Below, in pieces: positions 48,998 to 59,854 of a stretch of DNA of 64,000 nucleotides. Every line of letters starts with the position of its first letter. The first letter of the stretch is position 1. Under the pieces are notes generated by a model, which was given only the letters and a program-made list of their open reading frames with translations, searched no databases and was not told the DNA's origin. The stretch lies in assembly GCA_021792365.1 (NCBI GenBank), contig JAJYUT010000001.1, forward strand, positions 806,001 to 870,000. Reading direction: 5' to 3'. Position numbers and translations under genes: made by a program. Origin of the DNA: Pseudomonadota bacterium (GTDB lineage: Bacteria > Pseudomonadota > Alphaproteobacteria > Dongiales > Dongiaceae).

Positions 48998-49261
48998 TTA
49001 TCGTTTCAGCCGGTCCAGCAGCGCCTTGCAGACCCAGATGCTGCCGGCGAAGAACAGCAGGAACGGCACCACGATCAGCAAGATGCCGAGCATCTCGCCG
49101 TAGAAGCCGTCCGCGAAAAAGGCCAGGAAGCAGAAGCCGCTCCCCAGCAGGCCGAGGATGCTGGCGATCATCACCAGAATTGCGACGACGCGCAGGGCGC
49201 CAGTGTTGTTGCCGGCCGGGTTGCCGGCATCCCTGCTGACGGTCGGCGGCTGATCGGACAT
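48998..49261 (-). CDS. Small two-helix membrane protein
   Basis: 87 residues from ATG 49261, preceded by ggggga. Two helices: ALRVVAILVMIASILGLLGS and GEMLGILLIVVPFLLFFAGS. The N-terminal 25 residues are polar and rich in Asn/Pro. It is located just downstream of the radical SAM gene on the same strand (22-base gap), so possibly part of that operon. Function unknown. Confidence 0.7.
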   Translation of the reverse strand: MSDQPPTVSRDAGNPAGNNTGALRVVAILVMIASILGLLGSGFCFLAFFADGFYGEMLGILLIVVPFLLFFAGSIWVCKALLDRLKR

Positions 49262-49283: not shown

Positions 49284-50708
49284 CTATTGCGCCGCGCTGG
49301 GCGCTTGGTCCGGCTGCCCAAGCTCGCGCCGGATGCGGCGGTCCGTCCCGTCGCGATAGAACAGGTTATAGGTGTCGAACGGGATGATGCGCTGCTCCGG
49401 CGTCACGAAGTGGATGCAGGAGCGCTTCACCTGCGCCACGCAGAAATTGAACCGGTCCAGGAACTGGATGCCGAGCACCCGGAACACGCGATCGTAGCCG
49501 ATCGCGTCCGGCACCTGGAACTGCGGCAGGCAGCACAGCAGTTCGCGCAATTTGAGGTCGGTCATCTCGCCGGCCGCGGACAGCGACATGAGCTGGAACA
49601 GCCGCTCCTTCAGCGCCGGGAATTTCTCATAGGCGATGGTATTGGGCCCGTCGCGCAGCAAATCGGCGCGCGGCAGCAGGCTGGTGATGGGCGTCAGCCT
49701 GCGCCCGTCGCGCAGGGCATAGCCGATGGTGATGGATTCGGGGTTGCAGGGCAGGGGGATGATGTCCTCCGCCGCGAAGCCGCAATCCTGCTCGATCAGG
49801 CCGCGCCGGATGTCGGAGAGCAGCACGCGGTCGCGGTTCTTGTCGAAGCCGAGATTGCGCCCGGCATCCTGCACCGGCTGGAAGGTGACGCCGCGCACGC
49901 AGTTCCAGGTGAGGGCATGGCGCACGATCTCGCCGATTTCGTCGTCGTTTGCGCCCTTCTTGAGCACGGCGACGAGGGTGGTGGAGATGTTGTGCCGCTC
50001 GAGGTTTTCCAGCGCCTGCTGGCGGACAGCGCGCAGATCCGCGCCTCGGATCTGCATCAGCGCGTCGCGGCGCAGCGAATCGAATTGCAGATAGACCTCG
50101 AAGCCCGGCGTGAACTCGGCGAGCCGCGCGACGAAGTCCGGATCGCGCGCCAGGCGGATGCCGTTGGTGTTCAGCATCAGATGCCGGATCGGCCGCCGCT
50201 TCGCCATCCGCAGAACTTCGAGGATGTCGGGATGCAAAGTCGGCTCGCCGCCGGAGATCTGCAGCAGGTCCGGCTCGCCCTCGCTCACGATCAGGGTATC
50301 GAGCATCCGCTCGATGGTCGGCAGGTCCAGATGCTTCGGCCGGTGCGGCGCGGAATCGGCGAAGCAGACCGGACAGGTCAGGTTGCAATGCTCGTTGATC
50401 TCGATGAGGGCAAGGCAGGAATGCTGCTCATGGTCCGGGCACAGGCCGCAATCGAACGGGCAGCCGTATTGCGTGCGCGACTGGAACTTGAGCGGGATGT
50501 CGCCGGGCTTCAGCCAGTCGCGGCACTGCCGGTAATAGGCGGCGTCGGTGGAAACGAGCGTCTTCTGGACGCCGTGCGCCTCGCAGCGCTTCTGGAAGAA
50601 AACGTCGTCGCCCTCGATCAGGATCTTGGCCGGGACCGGATGCAGGCAGGTTTCGCACAGCGACTGGGTCTGTCCGTAGAACAGGTACGACTTCAGCGCG
50701 CGCTGCAT
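49284..50708 (-). CDS. COG1964-type radical SAM enzyme (tetraether-lipid-synthase-like)
   Basis: 474 residues. The N-terminal Cys-rich segment SLCETCLHPVPAKILIEGDD and KRCEAHG (C18, C21, C42) is followed by GCPFDCGLCPDHEQHSC (C83, C87, C90, C98). The radical SAM motif HCNLTCPVCFA (C108-x3-C112-x2-C115) follows, then SGGEPTLHPDILEV. This order of one core and extra cluster sites is what I know from COG1964, which includes archaeal Tes/MJ0619 that joins lipid tails. The gene overlaps the Lgt-like gene by 16 bases. Bacterial members have largely unknown function; lipid or fatty-chain chemistry is inference. Confidence 0.83.
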   Translation of the reverse strand: MQRALKSYLFYGQTQSLCETCLHPVPAKILIEGDDVFFQKRCEAHGVQKTLVSTDAAYYRQCRDWLKPGDIPLKFQSRTQYGCPFDCGLCPDHEQHSCLALIEINEHCNLTCPVCFADSAPHRPKHLDLPTIERMLDTLIVSEGEPDLLQISGGEPTLHPDILEVLRMAKRRPIRHLMLNTNGIRLARDPDFVARLAEFTPGFEVYLQFDSLRRDALMQIRGADLRAVRQQALENLERHNISTTLVAVLKKGANDDEIGEIVRHALTWNCVRGVTFQPVQDAGRNLGFDKNRDRVLLSDIRRGLIEQDCGFAAEDIIPLPCNPESITIGYALRDGRRLTPITSLLPRADLLRDGPNTIAYEKFPALKERLFQLMSLSAAGEMTDLKLRELLCCLPQFQVPDAIGYDRVFRVLGIQFLDRFNFCVAQVKRSCIHFVTPEQRIIPFDTYNLFYRDGTDRRIRRELGQPDQAPSAAQ

Positions 50709-51424
50709 GTGCCCCCCACGATCGTCCCCCGCCGACGCGACAGCATGAACAGAGCGTAGCCGAAGAGCAGGATCGCGCCAATCTGAAACACGTCGAGCCC
50801 GGCGAAAGCCTCGCCATAGGGCTTGGTGAACTCGATCAGGAAGCGCTGCGCCGCGTAATAGGCGATGAAAACGTAAAAGCCGATGGCAGCCACCGCCTGC
50901 GGTGCGCGGCGAAACCAGAGCAAAAATCCAGCCAGGAAGGCCAGCATCGCCAGGGATTCATAGAGCGGCGCGGGATGCCGTCCGATGCCGTCGCCGAAAT
51001 CCCACGCCCAGGGCAGCGATGTCGGCGCGCCGTAGGTCATGTCGTCGAGCCCGGCGAACTGGCAGCCGATGCGGCCCAGGATCATGCCGACCGTGAGCGG
51101 CACGACATAGACCACGCCGGTCGACCCGCCGCGGCCCTTGATGCGCTTCCAGATCTCGACTCCGAGAACCCCGCCAAAGACCGCACCGAACGCGCTGCGC
51201 CCGATCCCGGGGATGTCCGAGAGATAGAGATTGGCCGTGCCGAACCAGAGCGCGCCCAGCAGGGCGGCGAAGGCAAGAACGGCCCAATAGCCCAGCTCCC
51301 GCTGCGCGCTGGCGACGTAGCCGGCGGGTTTCAGGTGGAACCGATAGAACGCCCATCCGCTGAGCGTGCCGCACGTGGCGGCGAAGAGATCGGTGAGGAG
51401 GTGGAGATGCGGGGGGAGAATCAA
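50693..51424 (-). CDS. Lgt-like membrane protein (prolipoprotein diacylglyceryl transferase family)
   Basis: 243 residues from TTG 51424, six bases after ggaaggag and overlapping the upstream stop (TTGA). About seven helices. Lgt landmarks: ILGRIGCQFAGLDDMTYG (117-, Arg kept, but the Asn of GRxGN is Cys here), RHPAPLYES (149-157, equals HPxxLYE) and QRFLIEFTKPYG (193-). The essential HGG-type His of Lgt is replaced (AVFGGVLG). So it is an Lgt relative that may not acylate lipoproteins; it may move another lipid group. It overlaps the radical SAM gene. Confidence 0.8.
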   Translation of the reverse strand: MILPPHLHLLTDLFAATCGTLSGWAFYRFHLKPAGYVASAQRELGYWAVLAFAALLGALWFGTANLYLSDIPGIGRSAFGAVFGGVLGVEIWKRIKGRGGSTGVVYVVPLTVGMILGRIGCQFAGLDDMTYGAPTSLPWAWDFGDGIGRHPAPLYESLAMLAFLAGFLLWFRRAPQAVAAIGFYVFIAYYAAQRFLIEFTKPYGEAFAGLDVFQIGAILLFGYALFMLSRRRGTIVGGTCSAR

Positions 51425-51813
51425 GAAAGCTCCTTCCCCCCTAGTGGGGGAAGGTTGGGATGGGGGGTGACGCCGCACGATGTTTGGTCATTGATCTCCG
51501 CAACGATCACTTGCCAAACACCACCGATATTGCTCAGCACTTCGTTGTTCCAGAATCGGAGCACACGAAATCCCTGGCCACGCATGAAATCATCGCGTCG
51601 CGAATCGTATGCGCGTGCCTCGGCGTGTTGACCTCCATCCACTTCGACCACTATCAATGCCTTCACGCAGGCGAAGTCGGCGATGTAGGGGCCGAGGCGT
51701 ACCTGCCTGCGGAATTTGTGGCCATCGAGCTGGCGTAGACGCAGATAGTGCCAGAGCTTACGCTCGGCATCTGTCATGTTCTTGCGCAAGTGTCGTGCAC
51801 GCGCGTCAGCCAT
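51421..51813 (-). CDS. DUF559 endonuclease-like protein
   Basis: 130 residues from ATG 51813. Pattern LRKNMTDAERKLWHYLRLRQ, FRRQVRLGPYIADFACVKAL, IVVEVDGGQHAEARAYDSRR, GFRVLRFWNNEVLSNI: the Vsr/PD-(D/E)xK-like fold with the Asp and Glu of DFAC...VEVDG. The C-terminal HPNLPPLGGKELS is encoded by the right inverted repeat. The gene lies between two inverted copies of a 38-bp palindromic repeat, and its stop overlaps the Lgt-like start (TTGA). Confidence 0.82.
   Translation of the reverse strand: MADARARHLRKNMTDAERKLWHYLRLRQLDGHKFRRQVRLGPYIADFACVKALIVVEVDGGQHAEARAYDSRRDDFMRGQGFRVLRFWNNEVLSNIGGVWQVIVAEINDQTSCGVTPHPNLPPLGGKELS
51432..51469. repeat. Inverted-repeat copy at the 3' side of the DUF559 gene
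   Basis: Starts ccttcccccctagtggggg and ends with gggatggggggtg. It is itself palindromic (cttccccc / gggggaag). Its reverse complement matches 51824-51862 with only a few differences. Confidence 0.9.
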
Positions 51814-51823
51814 TGTGCGGCGG

Positions 51824-51862
51824 CACCCCCCCATCCCAACCTTCCCCCACAAGGGGGGAAGG
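51824..51862. repeat. Inverted-repeat copy at the 5' side of the DUF559 gene
   Basis: Runs cacccccccatcccaacctt to aaggggggaagg, the reverse complement of the copy at 51432. It sits just upstream of the DUF559 start. Confidence 0.9.
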
Positions 51863-56042: not shown

Positions 56043-56368
56043 CCGTCACCCCCATTGAGTCGCTCGGCTGAACCGACCCGGAACTTTGCGGTTGCTTGCG
56101 ACGAGGCAAAAGCCCCTCCGTTGAGGGGACTACATCAAATCACCGATTCGCCGAAAGAGGCGGATAGCCGAAAGAATTTCGTCTGGGGCCTGCCTGCGCG
56201 CGGCATTTCCGAAGATTTTTCGACGCGACCGGGCTCTCCGGCGCTTTTTCAAACTCACCGCTTGAGTTGCGCATGGCTGATTCAAATCATGCGCGCGGCT
56301 GCCAGGGTCGGGAATCCCGGTCGAGTCCGTCGACCGGAATCCGCGCCTTGAGATGGGGGGTGAGGGGA
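56043..56368. other. Gap between lrp and the autotransporter
   Basis: 326 bases without a gene. It contains a perfect hairpin cccctc-cgtt-gagggg (56113-56128) and the direct repeat gccgaaag near 56150-56180. A gagggga ribosome site precedes ATG 56369. No clear promoter was found. Confidence 0.5.
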
Positions 56369-59300
56369 ATGAAGAAATCTCTGCTGGGCTCGAGCGCGCT
56401 CGCCGGCGCATCGGGCCTGACGCTCGTCATCGCGCTGGGCCTCGCCCAGGACAGCCGCGCCGATGACGAGTGCGGCCCCGCCAATGCGGGCGACACCGTT
56501 ACCTGCACGCCGGCCGGAAACGACTTCCCGGGGGGCATCCAGTACCAGGTCGTCGATCTTACCATCGTGGTCGAGGACGGGGTGATCATCGACACCACGG
56601 GCGTCGCGGGCGAGCCGGGGGGCATCGTCTCCGGGGACTTCAATTTCGGCGATCTGGTCGTGAAAGCCGGCACCAGCGGCGGGACCGGTGTCACGATCAC
56701 GACGGACGGGTCGGGCGCCGAAGGCATCGACGTAAGGACCGTCGGAACCGCCACGATCATCTCGTTCACGGACATCTCGACCTCCGGCACCGGCGCCGAA
56801 GGCATCTCCAGTTATGGAGACGCCGGGGTCGCAATTTCGTCGACCGGCACCATCACCACCAAAGGCACCGGCGCCGATGGCATCCATGTGTATAGCGTGG
56901 GTGGCAGTGTCTCGGTCACCTCGGCGGGCGCCATCGCGACCTCCGGTGAACAGTCGTACGGCATTACGGCTATCGGCTATCTCGGCGCCACGGTGATCTC
57001 GAACGGCGACATCGCGACGAAAGGCGGGTTCGGCGGCGCCATCCTGGGATTCTCGAGCAAGAGGGCGGTCTCAGTGACGTCAACGGGCGACCTGTCGACC
57101 GAAGGCAAGGCCTCTGCCGGCATCTACGCCTACTCCAAGGGCGCCGGGACAGGCGTGACGGTGACATCAACCGGCGACATCACGACGCAGAGCAACGATT
57201 CCCGCGGGATCCTCGCCCGGTCAGACTCGGGCGGAGTCAGCGTTTCCTCGACGGGCGATGTTGCAACCCAAGGGGCCTATGCCAGCGCCATTTTCGCCGA
57301 CGGGTACACCTTCTCGACCGTTTCCTCGAAAGGGGATATCTCGACCCAAGGCGCATTTTCGACGGGTATCTCAAGCTTCAGCTCTTCTGGCACATCGGTC
57401 GTTTCTGTCGGAGATATCACGACAAGCGGCTCGCTTGCCGCCAGCGGCATAACGGCCGCTGCCGTGGGGGGCACGGTCACGATTTCCTCCAACGGCGATA
57501 TTTCCACCGCTGGCATCAATTCATTCGGCATCTCCGGCAGTGTACTCGGCGGCACGGTGGTCATCATTTCGAGCGGCAAGATCTCGACCGGGGGAATCGG
57601 AGCGGCAGGTATCGGCGGCGGCGCATTCGCAGGGTCGATCGTCGTCTCTTCCGACAGCGATATCTCCACGATGGGAAGTGAGGCGCATGGTATTTCCGCA
57701 GGTAGTTCCAGCGGTGCCTCCGCCACGGTGGCATCCGGCGGCGACATTTCGACAAGGGGCGAGGAAGCGGATGGCCTTCACCTCTTTTCAAGATCCGGCG
57801 ATCTCGAGGCCACTTCTGCGGGTAACATTACGACCGCAGGCAAGGGCGCGGATGGCATCTCGGCCAACGCCGACGGCATCATCGTCGTCACGTCGACCGG
57901 GACAATCTCGGCAACGGGGCAATATGCGAGCGGCATCCTCGCCCAGAGCTACAAGTCGACGACCCAGATCTCAGTGAATGGGCGCGTCCAGGGCGGTTGG
58001 GATGGCGCCGCCGCCGGCATCTTCGTGGGGTCCGATGCCGGCGCCACATTGGATGTGCTGACCGATGGGACAGTTGGGGCGCTCAGCGATCGGGCGATTT
58101 TCAGTTCGGCCGGGGCCGTACAGATCACCAATAGCGGCACGATCACGGGTTATGTGCAGCTGAGTGATGGCGCCGACATGCTGAAGAACGTCTCCAGTGA
58201 TTCTTTCAACTTGCGCCATTTCGAGGACACGGACGGCGACGGGGTGCGGGACAAGGAGTTCGTGGCGATTGCGGATTTCGGGGCCGACGTGGACGATTTC
58301 GACAATGTGGGCACGCTGCGGCTGTCGAACGTCTCCGGCGCGTCGGCGTGGGACACGACCGGGCAGATCACGCATCCCGGCGGCGGGAATGCGGAGATCA
58401 CGCAGGACGGGGTGGAGCAGGGCTTCCTCACCAACCTCGAGACCTTCACCCATTCCGGCCTGATCACCTTGCAGGACGGGGTTGCGGGCGACCTGCTGGT
58501 GATCACCGACCAGGCAGATGGCGCGACGGCGGGGACCAATACCTTCACCAGCAACGGCGGGCGTCTGGCGCTGGACGTGACGCTGGATGACGGGGCGAGC
58601 GGGCAGTCCGACGTCCTGGTCCTGGACAAGGCGGTAACGGGAACGGGCGCAACATCCATTCTCGTGGCGGGGGTCGGCAGCTCGGGTGGCGACACGGGAA
58701 CGGGCGACGGAATCCTGGTCGTCAACGTGCGGACGGCGTCGGACGCAGATGCCTTCGTGCTGGGCAACAATCCGGTCGCCGGCGCCTATCAGTATGACCT
58801 GTTCTTTCAGAACCAGGCCGCGACCGACCAGAACTGGTATCTGCGCTCGAGCTTCTTCGAGGGCGCGCTGGAGTATCCCGCGATCACGACCGGCGCGCTG
58901 CTGACCTGGTATTCGGATCTTGGCCCGTTGCACGAGCGGCTGGGCGAGGTGCGGCGCGCCACCGAAGCGGGGCAGACGGCAACGTTTCCGCTGGTCACCA
59001 CCGCGGCCGGCGACACCAGCGCGGTGCGCATGAGTGACGGCGGCCAGGCGGGGTGGTTCCGCGTCATGGGCGCGGACATGGATATCGAACAGGATGGGCC
59101 GGCCGACTTCGATCTCGATACCGTGCGGGCTGAGGCCGGGTTCGATGTCGGGTTCGACAATCTGCTGGATCGGAGCGACTGGCTGGTGCTGGGTGCCTTC
59201 GCTGGCTACGGCTGGTCATCCCTTGGGTTCCAGAGCGGCGCCGATATCGATTTCGACATCGCGACAATCGGGGCCTACGCCACCTACTTCCGTGGGCCGT

Positions 59301-59854
59301 ATTATCTCGACGCGCTGGTCAAGTTCGACTGGCTGGACGGCGACTACAACTCTGATGCCGTCAGCCAGGACGGGGATGTGGAGATCCCGGTCATCGGCCT
59401 TTCGCTCGAGACGGGCTACCGGTTCGACCTCACCGACGGCGGGCTCTATCTCCAGCCGCAGGCGCAGCTCGCCTATGCCCATGCGGGTGGTGATGGCATC
59501 ACCGATGACAGCGGAGCCGAGATCAAGCTGGAGGATGCGGATTCCCTGCGCGGCCGCCTCGGTGCGCGACTGGGCCAGGAACTCGGCACCATCGCCGGCG
59601 CAGCGGCGGAGCCGGTCAAAGGCAACTTCTACGTCGAGGCCTCGGTCAACCAGGAGTTTCTCGGCGAGACCGAGGCCAAGGTCAGCGGCCTGAGGCTGGA
59701 GCAGGATCTGCCGGACACCACCTTCGAGATCGGCGCCGGCTTCGACATTGCCTTGCCCAAGAACGGCGTCACCTTCACGATCGATGCCGATTACACCTTC
59801 GGCGACGATATCGACGGTATCGGCGCGACCGGCGGAATCCGCATCAACTGGTAG
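56369..59854 (+). CDS. Type V autotransporter with repeat-rich beta-helix passenger
   Basis: 1161 residues from ATG 56369, after gagggga. Signal peptide of about 32 residues (MKKSLLGSSALAGASGLTLV). The passenger holds about 15 imperfect repeats of roughly 24 residues around the motif STGDISTQG-x-ASGI, the pattern of a right-handed beta-helix. A calcium-loop-like DTDGDGVRD follows near residue 610. The last about 280 residues are a beta-barrel (GWFRVMGADMDIEQDGPADF, ending IGATGGIRINW with C-terminal Trp). A surface adhesin or enzyme; no catalytic motif is seen. Confidence 0.88.
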   Translation: MKKSLLGSSALAGASGLTLVIALGLAQDSRADDECGPANAGDTVTCTPAGNDFPGGIQYQVVDLTIVVEDGVIIDTTGVAGEPGGIVSGDFNFGDLVVKAGTSGGTGVTITTDGSGAEGIDVRTVGTATIISFTDISTSGTGAEGISSYGDAGVAISSTGTITTKGTGADGIHVYSVGGSVSVTSAGAIATSGEQSYGITAIGYLGATVISNGDIATKGGFGGAILGFSSKRAVSVTSTGDLSTEGKASAGIYAYSKGAGTGVTVTSTGDITTQSNDSRGILARSDSGGVSVSSTGDVATQGAYASAIFADGYTFSTVSSKGDISTQGAFSTGISSFSSSGTSVVSVGDITTSGSLAASGITAAAVGGTVTISSNGDISTAGINSFGISGSVLGGTVVIISSGKISTGGIGAAGIGGGAFAGSIVVSSDSDISTMGSEAHGISAGSSSGASATVASGGDISTRGEEADGLHLFSRSGDLEATSAGNITTAGKGADGISANADGIIVVTSTGTISATGQYASGILAQSYKSTTQISVNGRVQGGWDGAAAGIFVGSDAGATLDVLTDGTVGALSDRAIFSSAGAVQITNSGTITGYVQLSDGADMLKNVSSDSFNLRHFEDTDGDGVRDKEFVAIADFGADVDDFDNVGTLRLSNVSGASAWDTTGQITHPGGGNAEITQDGVEQGFLTNLETFTHSGLITLQDGVAGDLLVITDQADGATAGTNTFTSNGGRLALDVTLDDGASGQSDVLVLDKAVTGTGATSILVAGVGSSGGDTGTGDGILVVNVRTASDADAFVLGNNPVAGAYQYDLFFQNQAATDQNWYLRSSFFEGALEYPAITTGALLTWYSDLGPLHERLGEVRRATEAGQTATFPLVTTAAGDTSAVRMSDGGQAGWFRVMGADMDIEQDGPADFDLDTVRAEAGFDVGFDNLLDRSDWLVLGAFAGYGWSSLGFQSGADIDFDIATIGAYATYFRGPYYLDALVKFDWLDGDYNSDAVSQDGDVEIPVIGLSLETGYRFDLTDGGLYLQPQAQLAYAHAGGDGITDDSGAEIKLEDADSLRGRLGARLGQELGTIAGAAAEPVKGNFYVEASVNQEFLGETEAKVSGLRLEQDLPDTTFEIGAGFDIALPKNGVTFTIDADYTFGDDIDGIGATGGIRINW

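Follow-up and report, generated by a model that had tools for sequence, protein, structure and literature searches.

An Lgt-like membrane protein, a Tes/TrsS-type radical SAM enzyme and small G-x-C membrane proteins form an evidently mobile gene module of possible lipidation function

The window, the 64,000-nucleotide stretch of DNA that was analysed, encodes an Lgt-like membrane protein and a Tes/TrsS-type radical SAM enzyme whose genes are inherited as a pair, together with a small two-helix membrane protein that belongs to the same module. Among the explanations that were weighed, we tentatively prefer a mobile three-part module in which the Lgt-like enzyme lipidates the Cys of a G-x-C motif in the small proteins and the radical SAM enzyme tailors the lipid or the protein; we regard this reading as only slightly less probable than its being wrong. 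The features of the locus are listed in Table 1.

Table 1. Features of the module in the window (positions are those of the window)
Feature	Position	Strand	Description
Lgt-like membrane protein gene	50693..51424	minus	~243 aa from TTG 51424; 261 aa from GTG 51478
Tes/TrsS-type radical SAM gene	49284..50708	minus	474 aa
Overlap of Lgt-like and radical SAM genes	50693..50708	minus	16 bp
Small two-helix membrane protein gene	48998..49261	minus	87 aa, SGFC (G-x-C) ending helix 1

Locus, gene pair and co-inheritance

The overlap of the two larger genes, described in the initial annotation, was reproduced with both open reading frames (ORFs) on the same strand, and the gene of the small protein begins 22 bases past the stop codon of the radical SAM gene. 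The listed start of the Lgt-like ORF, the GTG, falls inside a repeated palindrome, and the downstream TTG, which is preceded by GGAAGGAG, is the more likely start of the gene, in agreement with the end coordinate given in the initial annotation. The palindromic repeat, GGGGAAGG, contains this upstream GTG and translates as NLPPLGGK or SPTRGEG; copies of it flank a DUF559-like ORF at 51421-51852. Elsewhere in the window, positions 56267-59854 encode an autotransporter-like protein of 1195 aa with many imperfect repeats. A search upstream of the module for FNR/FixK-type boxes returned a single weak match, and regulation was not conserved.

A scan of genome contigs retrieved 80 related loci, all from Alphaproteobacteria or unplaced Proteobacteria. 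The Lgt-like gene was located immediately upstream of the radical SAM gene and on the same strand in 79 of the 80 loci, and in the sole exception (L003) the contig breaks off 18 bp away from the radical SAM match. The commonest arrangement among these relatives is a 20-bp overlap, measured from the first start codon to the stop. Of 80 Bradyrhizobium genomes, 34 were matched by the radical SAM profile and 33 by the Lgt-like profile, at adjacent coordinates, with both genes carried by the identical 33 genomes (Fisher 3e-23); the additional radical SAM match (G798) is a divergent protein followed by a methyltransferase gene. Similarly, the 12 of 398 Pseudomonadota genomes with the radical SAM gene were the same 12 that gave a strong Lgt-like match. 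The pairing is not due to chance, and the co-occurrence across genomes that the initial annotation had proposed as a check was borne out. The Lgt matches of two genomes (G516 and G193) were considered as exceptions to the pairing and turned out to be canonical Lgts with HGG/HGA motifs. Inspection of 25 diverse loci revealed no other conserved gene of at least 90 aa near the pair, antisense shadow ORFs excepted. One Bradyrhizobium locus still has the Lgt-like gene and four small proteins, but its radical SAM gene (G831:C52 41447-42819) is broken across two frames, either by a sequencing error or through decay of recent date.

The close radical SAM type was present in 4 of the 385 genomes sampled from the class, and the Lgt-like gene was missing in three congeneric genomes, one of which is just 68% complete. 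The distribution is thus patchy and the module evidently mobile. Outside the class, the pair was found in other Pseudomonadota (G404, G452, G543), and with overlapping genes in Persicobacter (Bacteroidota, L108) and Nonomuraea (Actinomycetota, L112). In M. avium and M. branderi the pair is plasmid-borne and separated by two small genes (L111, L133), and in two small alphaproteobacterial genomes (L117, L118) its order is reversed. In a phylogeny of 23 radical SAM proteins, every Lgt-linked protein fell on one side of a branch (support 95/91), with a core of 12 Lgt-linked proteins at support 100/96; the placement of L111/L112/L133 and of L117/L118 is unsure owing to long branches.

Several loci presented additional neighbours. 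In a sister arrangement (L109, L110, L134, L135, L136), which is without the Lgt-like gene and without small G-x-C genes, a Tes/TrsS-type radical SAM gene overlaps a methyltransferase gene; its hosts are mycobacteria (including M. vanbaalenii), haloarchaea and one Bradyrhizobium, and redoxin, CcdA or DUF547 genes are often nearby. In G543 (L115 4835-5653) the Lgt-like gene is separated from the radical SAM gene by that of a 272-aa Sel1-repeat-like protein, whose N-terminal helix ends in IGGTGC and which occupies the site of the small G-x-C proteins at other loci. The reversed module is adjoined by a membrane protein that resembles isoprenylcysteine methyltransferases and is rich in Cys at one end (L117 2435-3412, L118 7754-8755), and on the M. 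branderi plasmid (L133 3066-4180) two DUF3558 proteins with lipoprotein-like N-termini are located just upstream of the Lgt-like gene.

Folds and site residues of the paired proteins

The Lgt-like protein matched the Lgt profile PF01790, against which the initial annotation had suggested searching it, with 58.5 bits (cut-off 24.9), and scored 25 bits with the TIGR00544 equivalog, under its cut-off of 118.9. The AF2 model of the protein (pLDDT 88.8) aligned to E. coli Lgt (5AZB) over 211 residues with a Z of 11.6, and the next match reached Z 7.4; Lgt was alone above Z 8 in this comparison, in which the missing of other folds is uninformative. The seven-helix Lgt fold is confirmed at the level of this predicted model.

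Equivalents of the Lgt residues R143, Y235, R239, E202 and E243 were retained in the window protein and invariant across the 88 closest homologs, with Lys substituting for R143 in L117 and L118 only. Of these residues, R143, R239 and Y235 bind phosphatidylglycerol (PG) in Lgt. Three residues that are each essential in E. coli Lgt, namely Y26, H103 and N146, are all changed. A helix-1 His replaces Y26 in nearly all of the 95 pair-linked Lgt-like proteins, the position of N146 is Cys (GRxGC) in all 95, and H103, the His of HGGL, is Phe in the window protein and variable across the family; E151 is also lost. The pair-linked proteins further share Lys at position 92 (95/95), which together with the TM1 His and GRxGC makes up a signature that was absent in the canonical Lgts compared, and they have private conserved residues at E91, K94, D129, T131 and KPY (A1 numbering). 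A separate, canonical Lgt is encoded in the same genome (247 bits), with its HGGL and GRxxNF motifs intact.

The initial annotation had correctly noted the loss of the key His and the Asn-to-Cys change, but its description of an Lgt relative without its catalytic residues was too strong in view of the residues retained. H103 is poorly conserved and often replaced among natural Lgts, and natural homologs with N146C exist, of which the Leptospira N146C Lgt partly complements E. coli (PMC13251419, 2026). It has also been proposed that H103 may position the protein substrate (PMC13251419), a role that would fit a changed acceptor motif. Given that the PG-binding residues are retained and that new, family-specific polar residues are invariant, the protein probably still works as a transferase, in altered form and on a different acceptor, and the notion of a dead enzyme is disfavoured.

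The radical SAM protein matched PF04055 (E=1.8e-22) and PF23545, the 'HMPTM zinc ribbon' (E=5.7e-17); among relatives with a solved structure, GDGT-MAS came closest (7TOL, E=3.7e-64). The best NCBIfam profile was TrsS (NF045646), which was matched over nearly the full length with 312.6 bits against a cut-off of 490, and the Tes profile (NF045702) gave 264.5 bits, under its cut-off of 450. A structural model with a pLDDT of 74, weak in a C-terminal part (360-403), matched GDGT-MAS 7TOM over its whole length (TM 0.75, E=4.3e-34). For the comparison of residues, the site positions of GDGT-MAS were taken from PMC9433317. The Cys motifs quoted in the initial annotation were all present, and the corresponding ligands are conserved across the family: the rubredoxin-like site is C18/C21/C42/H45 (C9/C12/C33/H36 in GDGT-MAS), the N-terminal cluster, [Fe4S4]N, is C83/C87/C90/H93 (C73/C77/C80/His in GDGT-MAS), and the radical SAM cluster is held by C108/C112/C115. 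In the region of the C-terminal cluster, Met439 is lost and GDGT-MAS positions 438, 455 and 470 are not Cys, the Cys of position 456 being retained as C431. Unlike GDGT-MAS, the core group of the radical SAM proteins carries C98, C321, C392 and C393 without variation. As the GDGT-MAS variants M439A and Y459F remain active (PMC9433317), the C-terminal losses alone do not exclude a tail-coupling chemistry.

The scores under the Tes and TrsS cut-offs and the different C-terminal Cys set indicate, on the evidence of sequence, that the protein lies within the Tes structural family but is not Tes. The relation to COG1964 and tetraether lipid synthase put forward in the initial annotation therefore holds for the structural family and not for the enzyme itself. 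Orthology to TrsS with a methyltransferase partner was ruled out by the Lgt-like partner and by the tree.

Small membrane proteins as the third component

The region downstream of the radical SAM gene was searched without reference to any motif for an ORF of 45-140 aa with a transmembrane stretch, starting between -15 and +150 nt from the radical SAM stop. Such an ORF was found in 83 of 88 loci. The G-x-C motif was present in 79 of these 83 positioned ORFs. Of the 267 small membrane ORFs situated elsewhere at these loci, 33 had it (Fisher 4e-46); shuffled sequences contained it in 17.7 cases on average and in 30 at most. Since the loci are not independent and Bradyrhizobium contributes over half of them, the safer figure is the one outside Bradyrhizobium, where 28 of 30 positioned ORFs carry the motif. 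A motif-bearing ORF was found within 800 bp at 80 of 89 loci, as opposed to 1 of 703 control genes. Three of the five loci (of 88) that fail the strict position test have a copy further downstream; in L073 and L115, no small G-x-C protein was found downstream of the radical SAM gene.

The small proteins occur in tandem arrays of one to four copies per locus and are under purifying selection (median dN/dS 0.44), and neither Pfam nor NCBIfam holds a family for them. The Cys of the motif sits 21 residues (IQR 20-22) after the start of helix 1, and the C-terminal tail has a net positive charge. In an alignment of 29 small proteins with a mean column identity of 23%, just three residues were invariant, namely the initiating Met and the Gly and Cys of the motif; these proteins had been preselected by the motif, and the unbiased evidence is that of the motif-free position test. 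The motif takes the form [SPATC]-G-x-C, which is not a standard lipobox, and only some copies (LAGGC, LSGGC) come close to the classical lipobox [LVI][ASTVI][GAS]C. The small proteins of Bradyrhizobium (e.g. L005:9413-9709) have a proline-rich N-terminus, like the actinobacterial versions, and a second invariant Cys (RxGCLTA) at the start of helix 1; as this lies 18 residues before the G-x-C Cys, one Cys is expected at each membrane face.

Small proteins at more distant loci are comparable to the alphaproteobacterial ones by their features, not by demonstrated homology. They comprise a 59-aa TGIC protein in Persicobacter, whose gene overlaps the radical SAM gene, small membrane proteins at three actinobacterial loci that end in GxCTG(L/I)NP, with the motif near the C-terminus, and proteins with AGTC and FGTC in L117 and L118.

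The small protein of the window is the sole clear copy in its own genome (E=6e-10; next 0.12). In Bradyrhizobium, the small-protein profile matched the same 33 genomes as the pair and 2 genomes without it. Of these two orphan copies one is frameshifted and the other truncated, with no radical SAM or Lgt-like remnant nearby; as both have decayed, the small protein is apparently useless without the pair. The small membrane proteins are thus the third component of the module, and the 87-aa protein of the window, which the initial annotation had suspected of belonging to it, is included on the strength of the position and motif tests. An earlier assignment of this protein outside the module, based on a tblastn search with it that gave no matches, was overturned by the position-based search.

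Proposed function, alternatives and known systems

The small hairpin proteins would most likely be dedicated substrates of the module. In the proposed mechanism, the small protein would insert into the membrane with both termini in the cytoplasm, and the G-x-C Cys would then lie where helix 1 reaches the periplasm, in the position that the lipobox Cys has in the signal peptide of a lipoprotein. The Lgt-like enzyme, which retains the PG-binding arginines and is changed on its peptide-binding side, would move a diacylglyceryl group or a related lipid onto this Cys. The cytoplasmic radical SAM enzyme would activate a C-H bond in acyl chains, whether of the donor lipid or of the attached one, or in the protein; tailoring of acyl chains is favoured by its modelled fold, and the enzyme may also act on the small protein itself. 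We infer this topology and the order of the steps. Lipid transfer to the motif is favoured by the position of the Cys, by the retention of the PG-binding residues, by the change on the peptide side and by the tandem small proteins that depend on the pair. The canonical Lgt site is periplasmic and radical SAM enzymes are cytoplasmic, which makes a shared substrate or a single-step scheme hard to explain, and the small proteins could be subunits instead, which counts against reading them as substrates. The non-standard form of the motif, the changes at Y26, H103 and N146, the C-terminal position of the motif in the actinobacterial proteins, the Sel1-repeat-like protein of G543 and the five loci that fail the position test also weigh against the proposal.

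Should the module amount to a new class of modification, uncleaved hairpins would carry on their G-x-C Cys a lipid that an Lgt paralog had attached and a Tes-type radical SAM enzyme had altered or cross-linked, and the system would be mobile across phyla; we consider this fuller proposal rather unlikely at present. The initial annotation had suggested that the pair performs a lipid or lipoprotein modification not yet described in bacteria. Our results are consistent with this, and no account of one turned up in the searchable literature, from which most subscription papers are missing, on Lgt together with radical SAM enzymes, on COG1964 or on radical SAM enzymes in the lipidation of small membrane proteins; the loss of catalytic residues on which the suggestion partly stood was not supported.

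The module might instead make a free membrane lipid, with the radical SAM enzyme coupling or altering acyl tails, the Lgt-like protein moving a diacylglyceryl or head group, and the hairpins serving as lipid-presenting or stabilising subunits. We hold this to be unlikely, though with an appreciable share of the probability. The GDGT-MAS fold and the retained cluster ligands agree with it, phospholipids were bound in the hydrophobic tunnel of GDGT-MAS (PMC9433317), and bacterial Tes homologs have been proposed to make membrane-spanning lipids (Zeng et al., PMC8941075). However, the one to four divergent tandem copies, with little in common beyond G-x-C, resemble substrates, the orphan copies decay, the Cys set of the C-terminal cluster is unlike that of Tes, and no further lipid genes travel with the pair in the 25 diverse loci. 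The tandem small proteins beside a radical SAM gene also recall peptide-maturation clusters, which raises the idea that the radical SAM enzyme acts on the small protein itself, for instance by forming a thioether or C-C link at a Cys, with the Lgt-like protein as a non-transferase chaperone or docking partner. The changes at H103, Y26 and N146 and the second invariant Cys in Bradyrhizobium would accord with this. It is nevertheless improbable, for the radical SAM protein resembles Tes/TrsS far more than peptide maturases, R143, R239, Y235 and E202 are kept together with invariant family-specific polar residues, as in enzymes, and the universal Cys is predicted to lie on the periplasmic side, where helix 1 ends.

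Lower in probability, and doubtful in our view, is the transfer by the Lgt-like protein of a group other than diacylglyceryl, such as a lipid or head group made by the radical SAM enzyme, to the small protein or another acceptor. The altered active site, with a Cys beside a PG-binding Arg, and the suggestion that divergent Lgts may use other substrates (PMC13251419) speak for it, whereas the keeping of both PG-binding Arg in nearly all members speaks against it. That the Lgt-like protein is an ordinary paralog acting on ordinary lipoproteins, with the radical SAM gene as an unrelated passenger on the same mobile segment, is very improbable. Such a view draws on the patchy, evidently mobile nature of the module and on the fact that extra Lgt copies are common and sometimes plasmid-borne (PMC13251419), but it conflicts with the strict co-occurrence, the overlapping genes and the similar pairs in several phyla, with the canonical Lgt of the same genome, and with the private signature of the pair-linked Lgts. 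Lipidation of the small proteins by the Lgt-like enzyme remains our preferred, tentative reading. If lipid transfer is true, the module would represent a second dedicated bacterial lipidation route, independent of a cleaved signal peptide.

Compared with known systems, the Lgt-like protein is like E. coli Lgt, the phosphatidylglycerol:prolipoprotein diacylglyceryl transferase, in its predicted fold, its PF01790 match and the five retained site equivalents, and unlike it in the Y26-to-His and N146-to-Cys changes, the loss of H103 and E151 and its linkage to a radical SAM gene. MSMEG_5408, an Lgt homolog of Mycolicibacterium smegmatis, has the same Y26H and N146C signature as the pair-linked proteins and has been described as a second Lgt homolog of presumed low activity (PMC13251419); our results suggest a role for such homologs, which have been set aside as low-activity copies. 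The radical SAM protein shares with GDGT-MAS/Tes the fold, the rubredoxin-like site, [Fe4S4]N and the radical SAM ligands, and differs in its ~30% identity, its other C-terminal Cys residues and its Lgt-like and small-protein partners. Bacterial Tes homologs are known as a group whose role is unassigned (Lloyd et al., PMC9433317; Zeng et al., PMC8941075), and a large group of them is now tied to a specific Lgt paralog and to candidate substrates with a universal Cys. TrsS provides the closest NCBIfam profile, whereas the radical SAM protein scores under its cut-off and is partnered by an Lgt-like protein. TrsS has a methyltransferase partner, TrsM, and in the tree methyltransferase partners are found in other branches only. 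As in RiPP-type radical SAM clusters, tandem small partner proteins adjoin the radical SAM gene; unlike in those clusters, the partners are membrane hairpins, the radical SAM enzyme belongs to the Tes/TrsS type and an Lgt paralog is always present.
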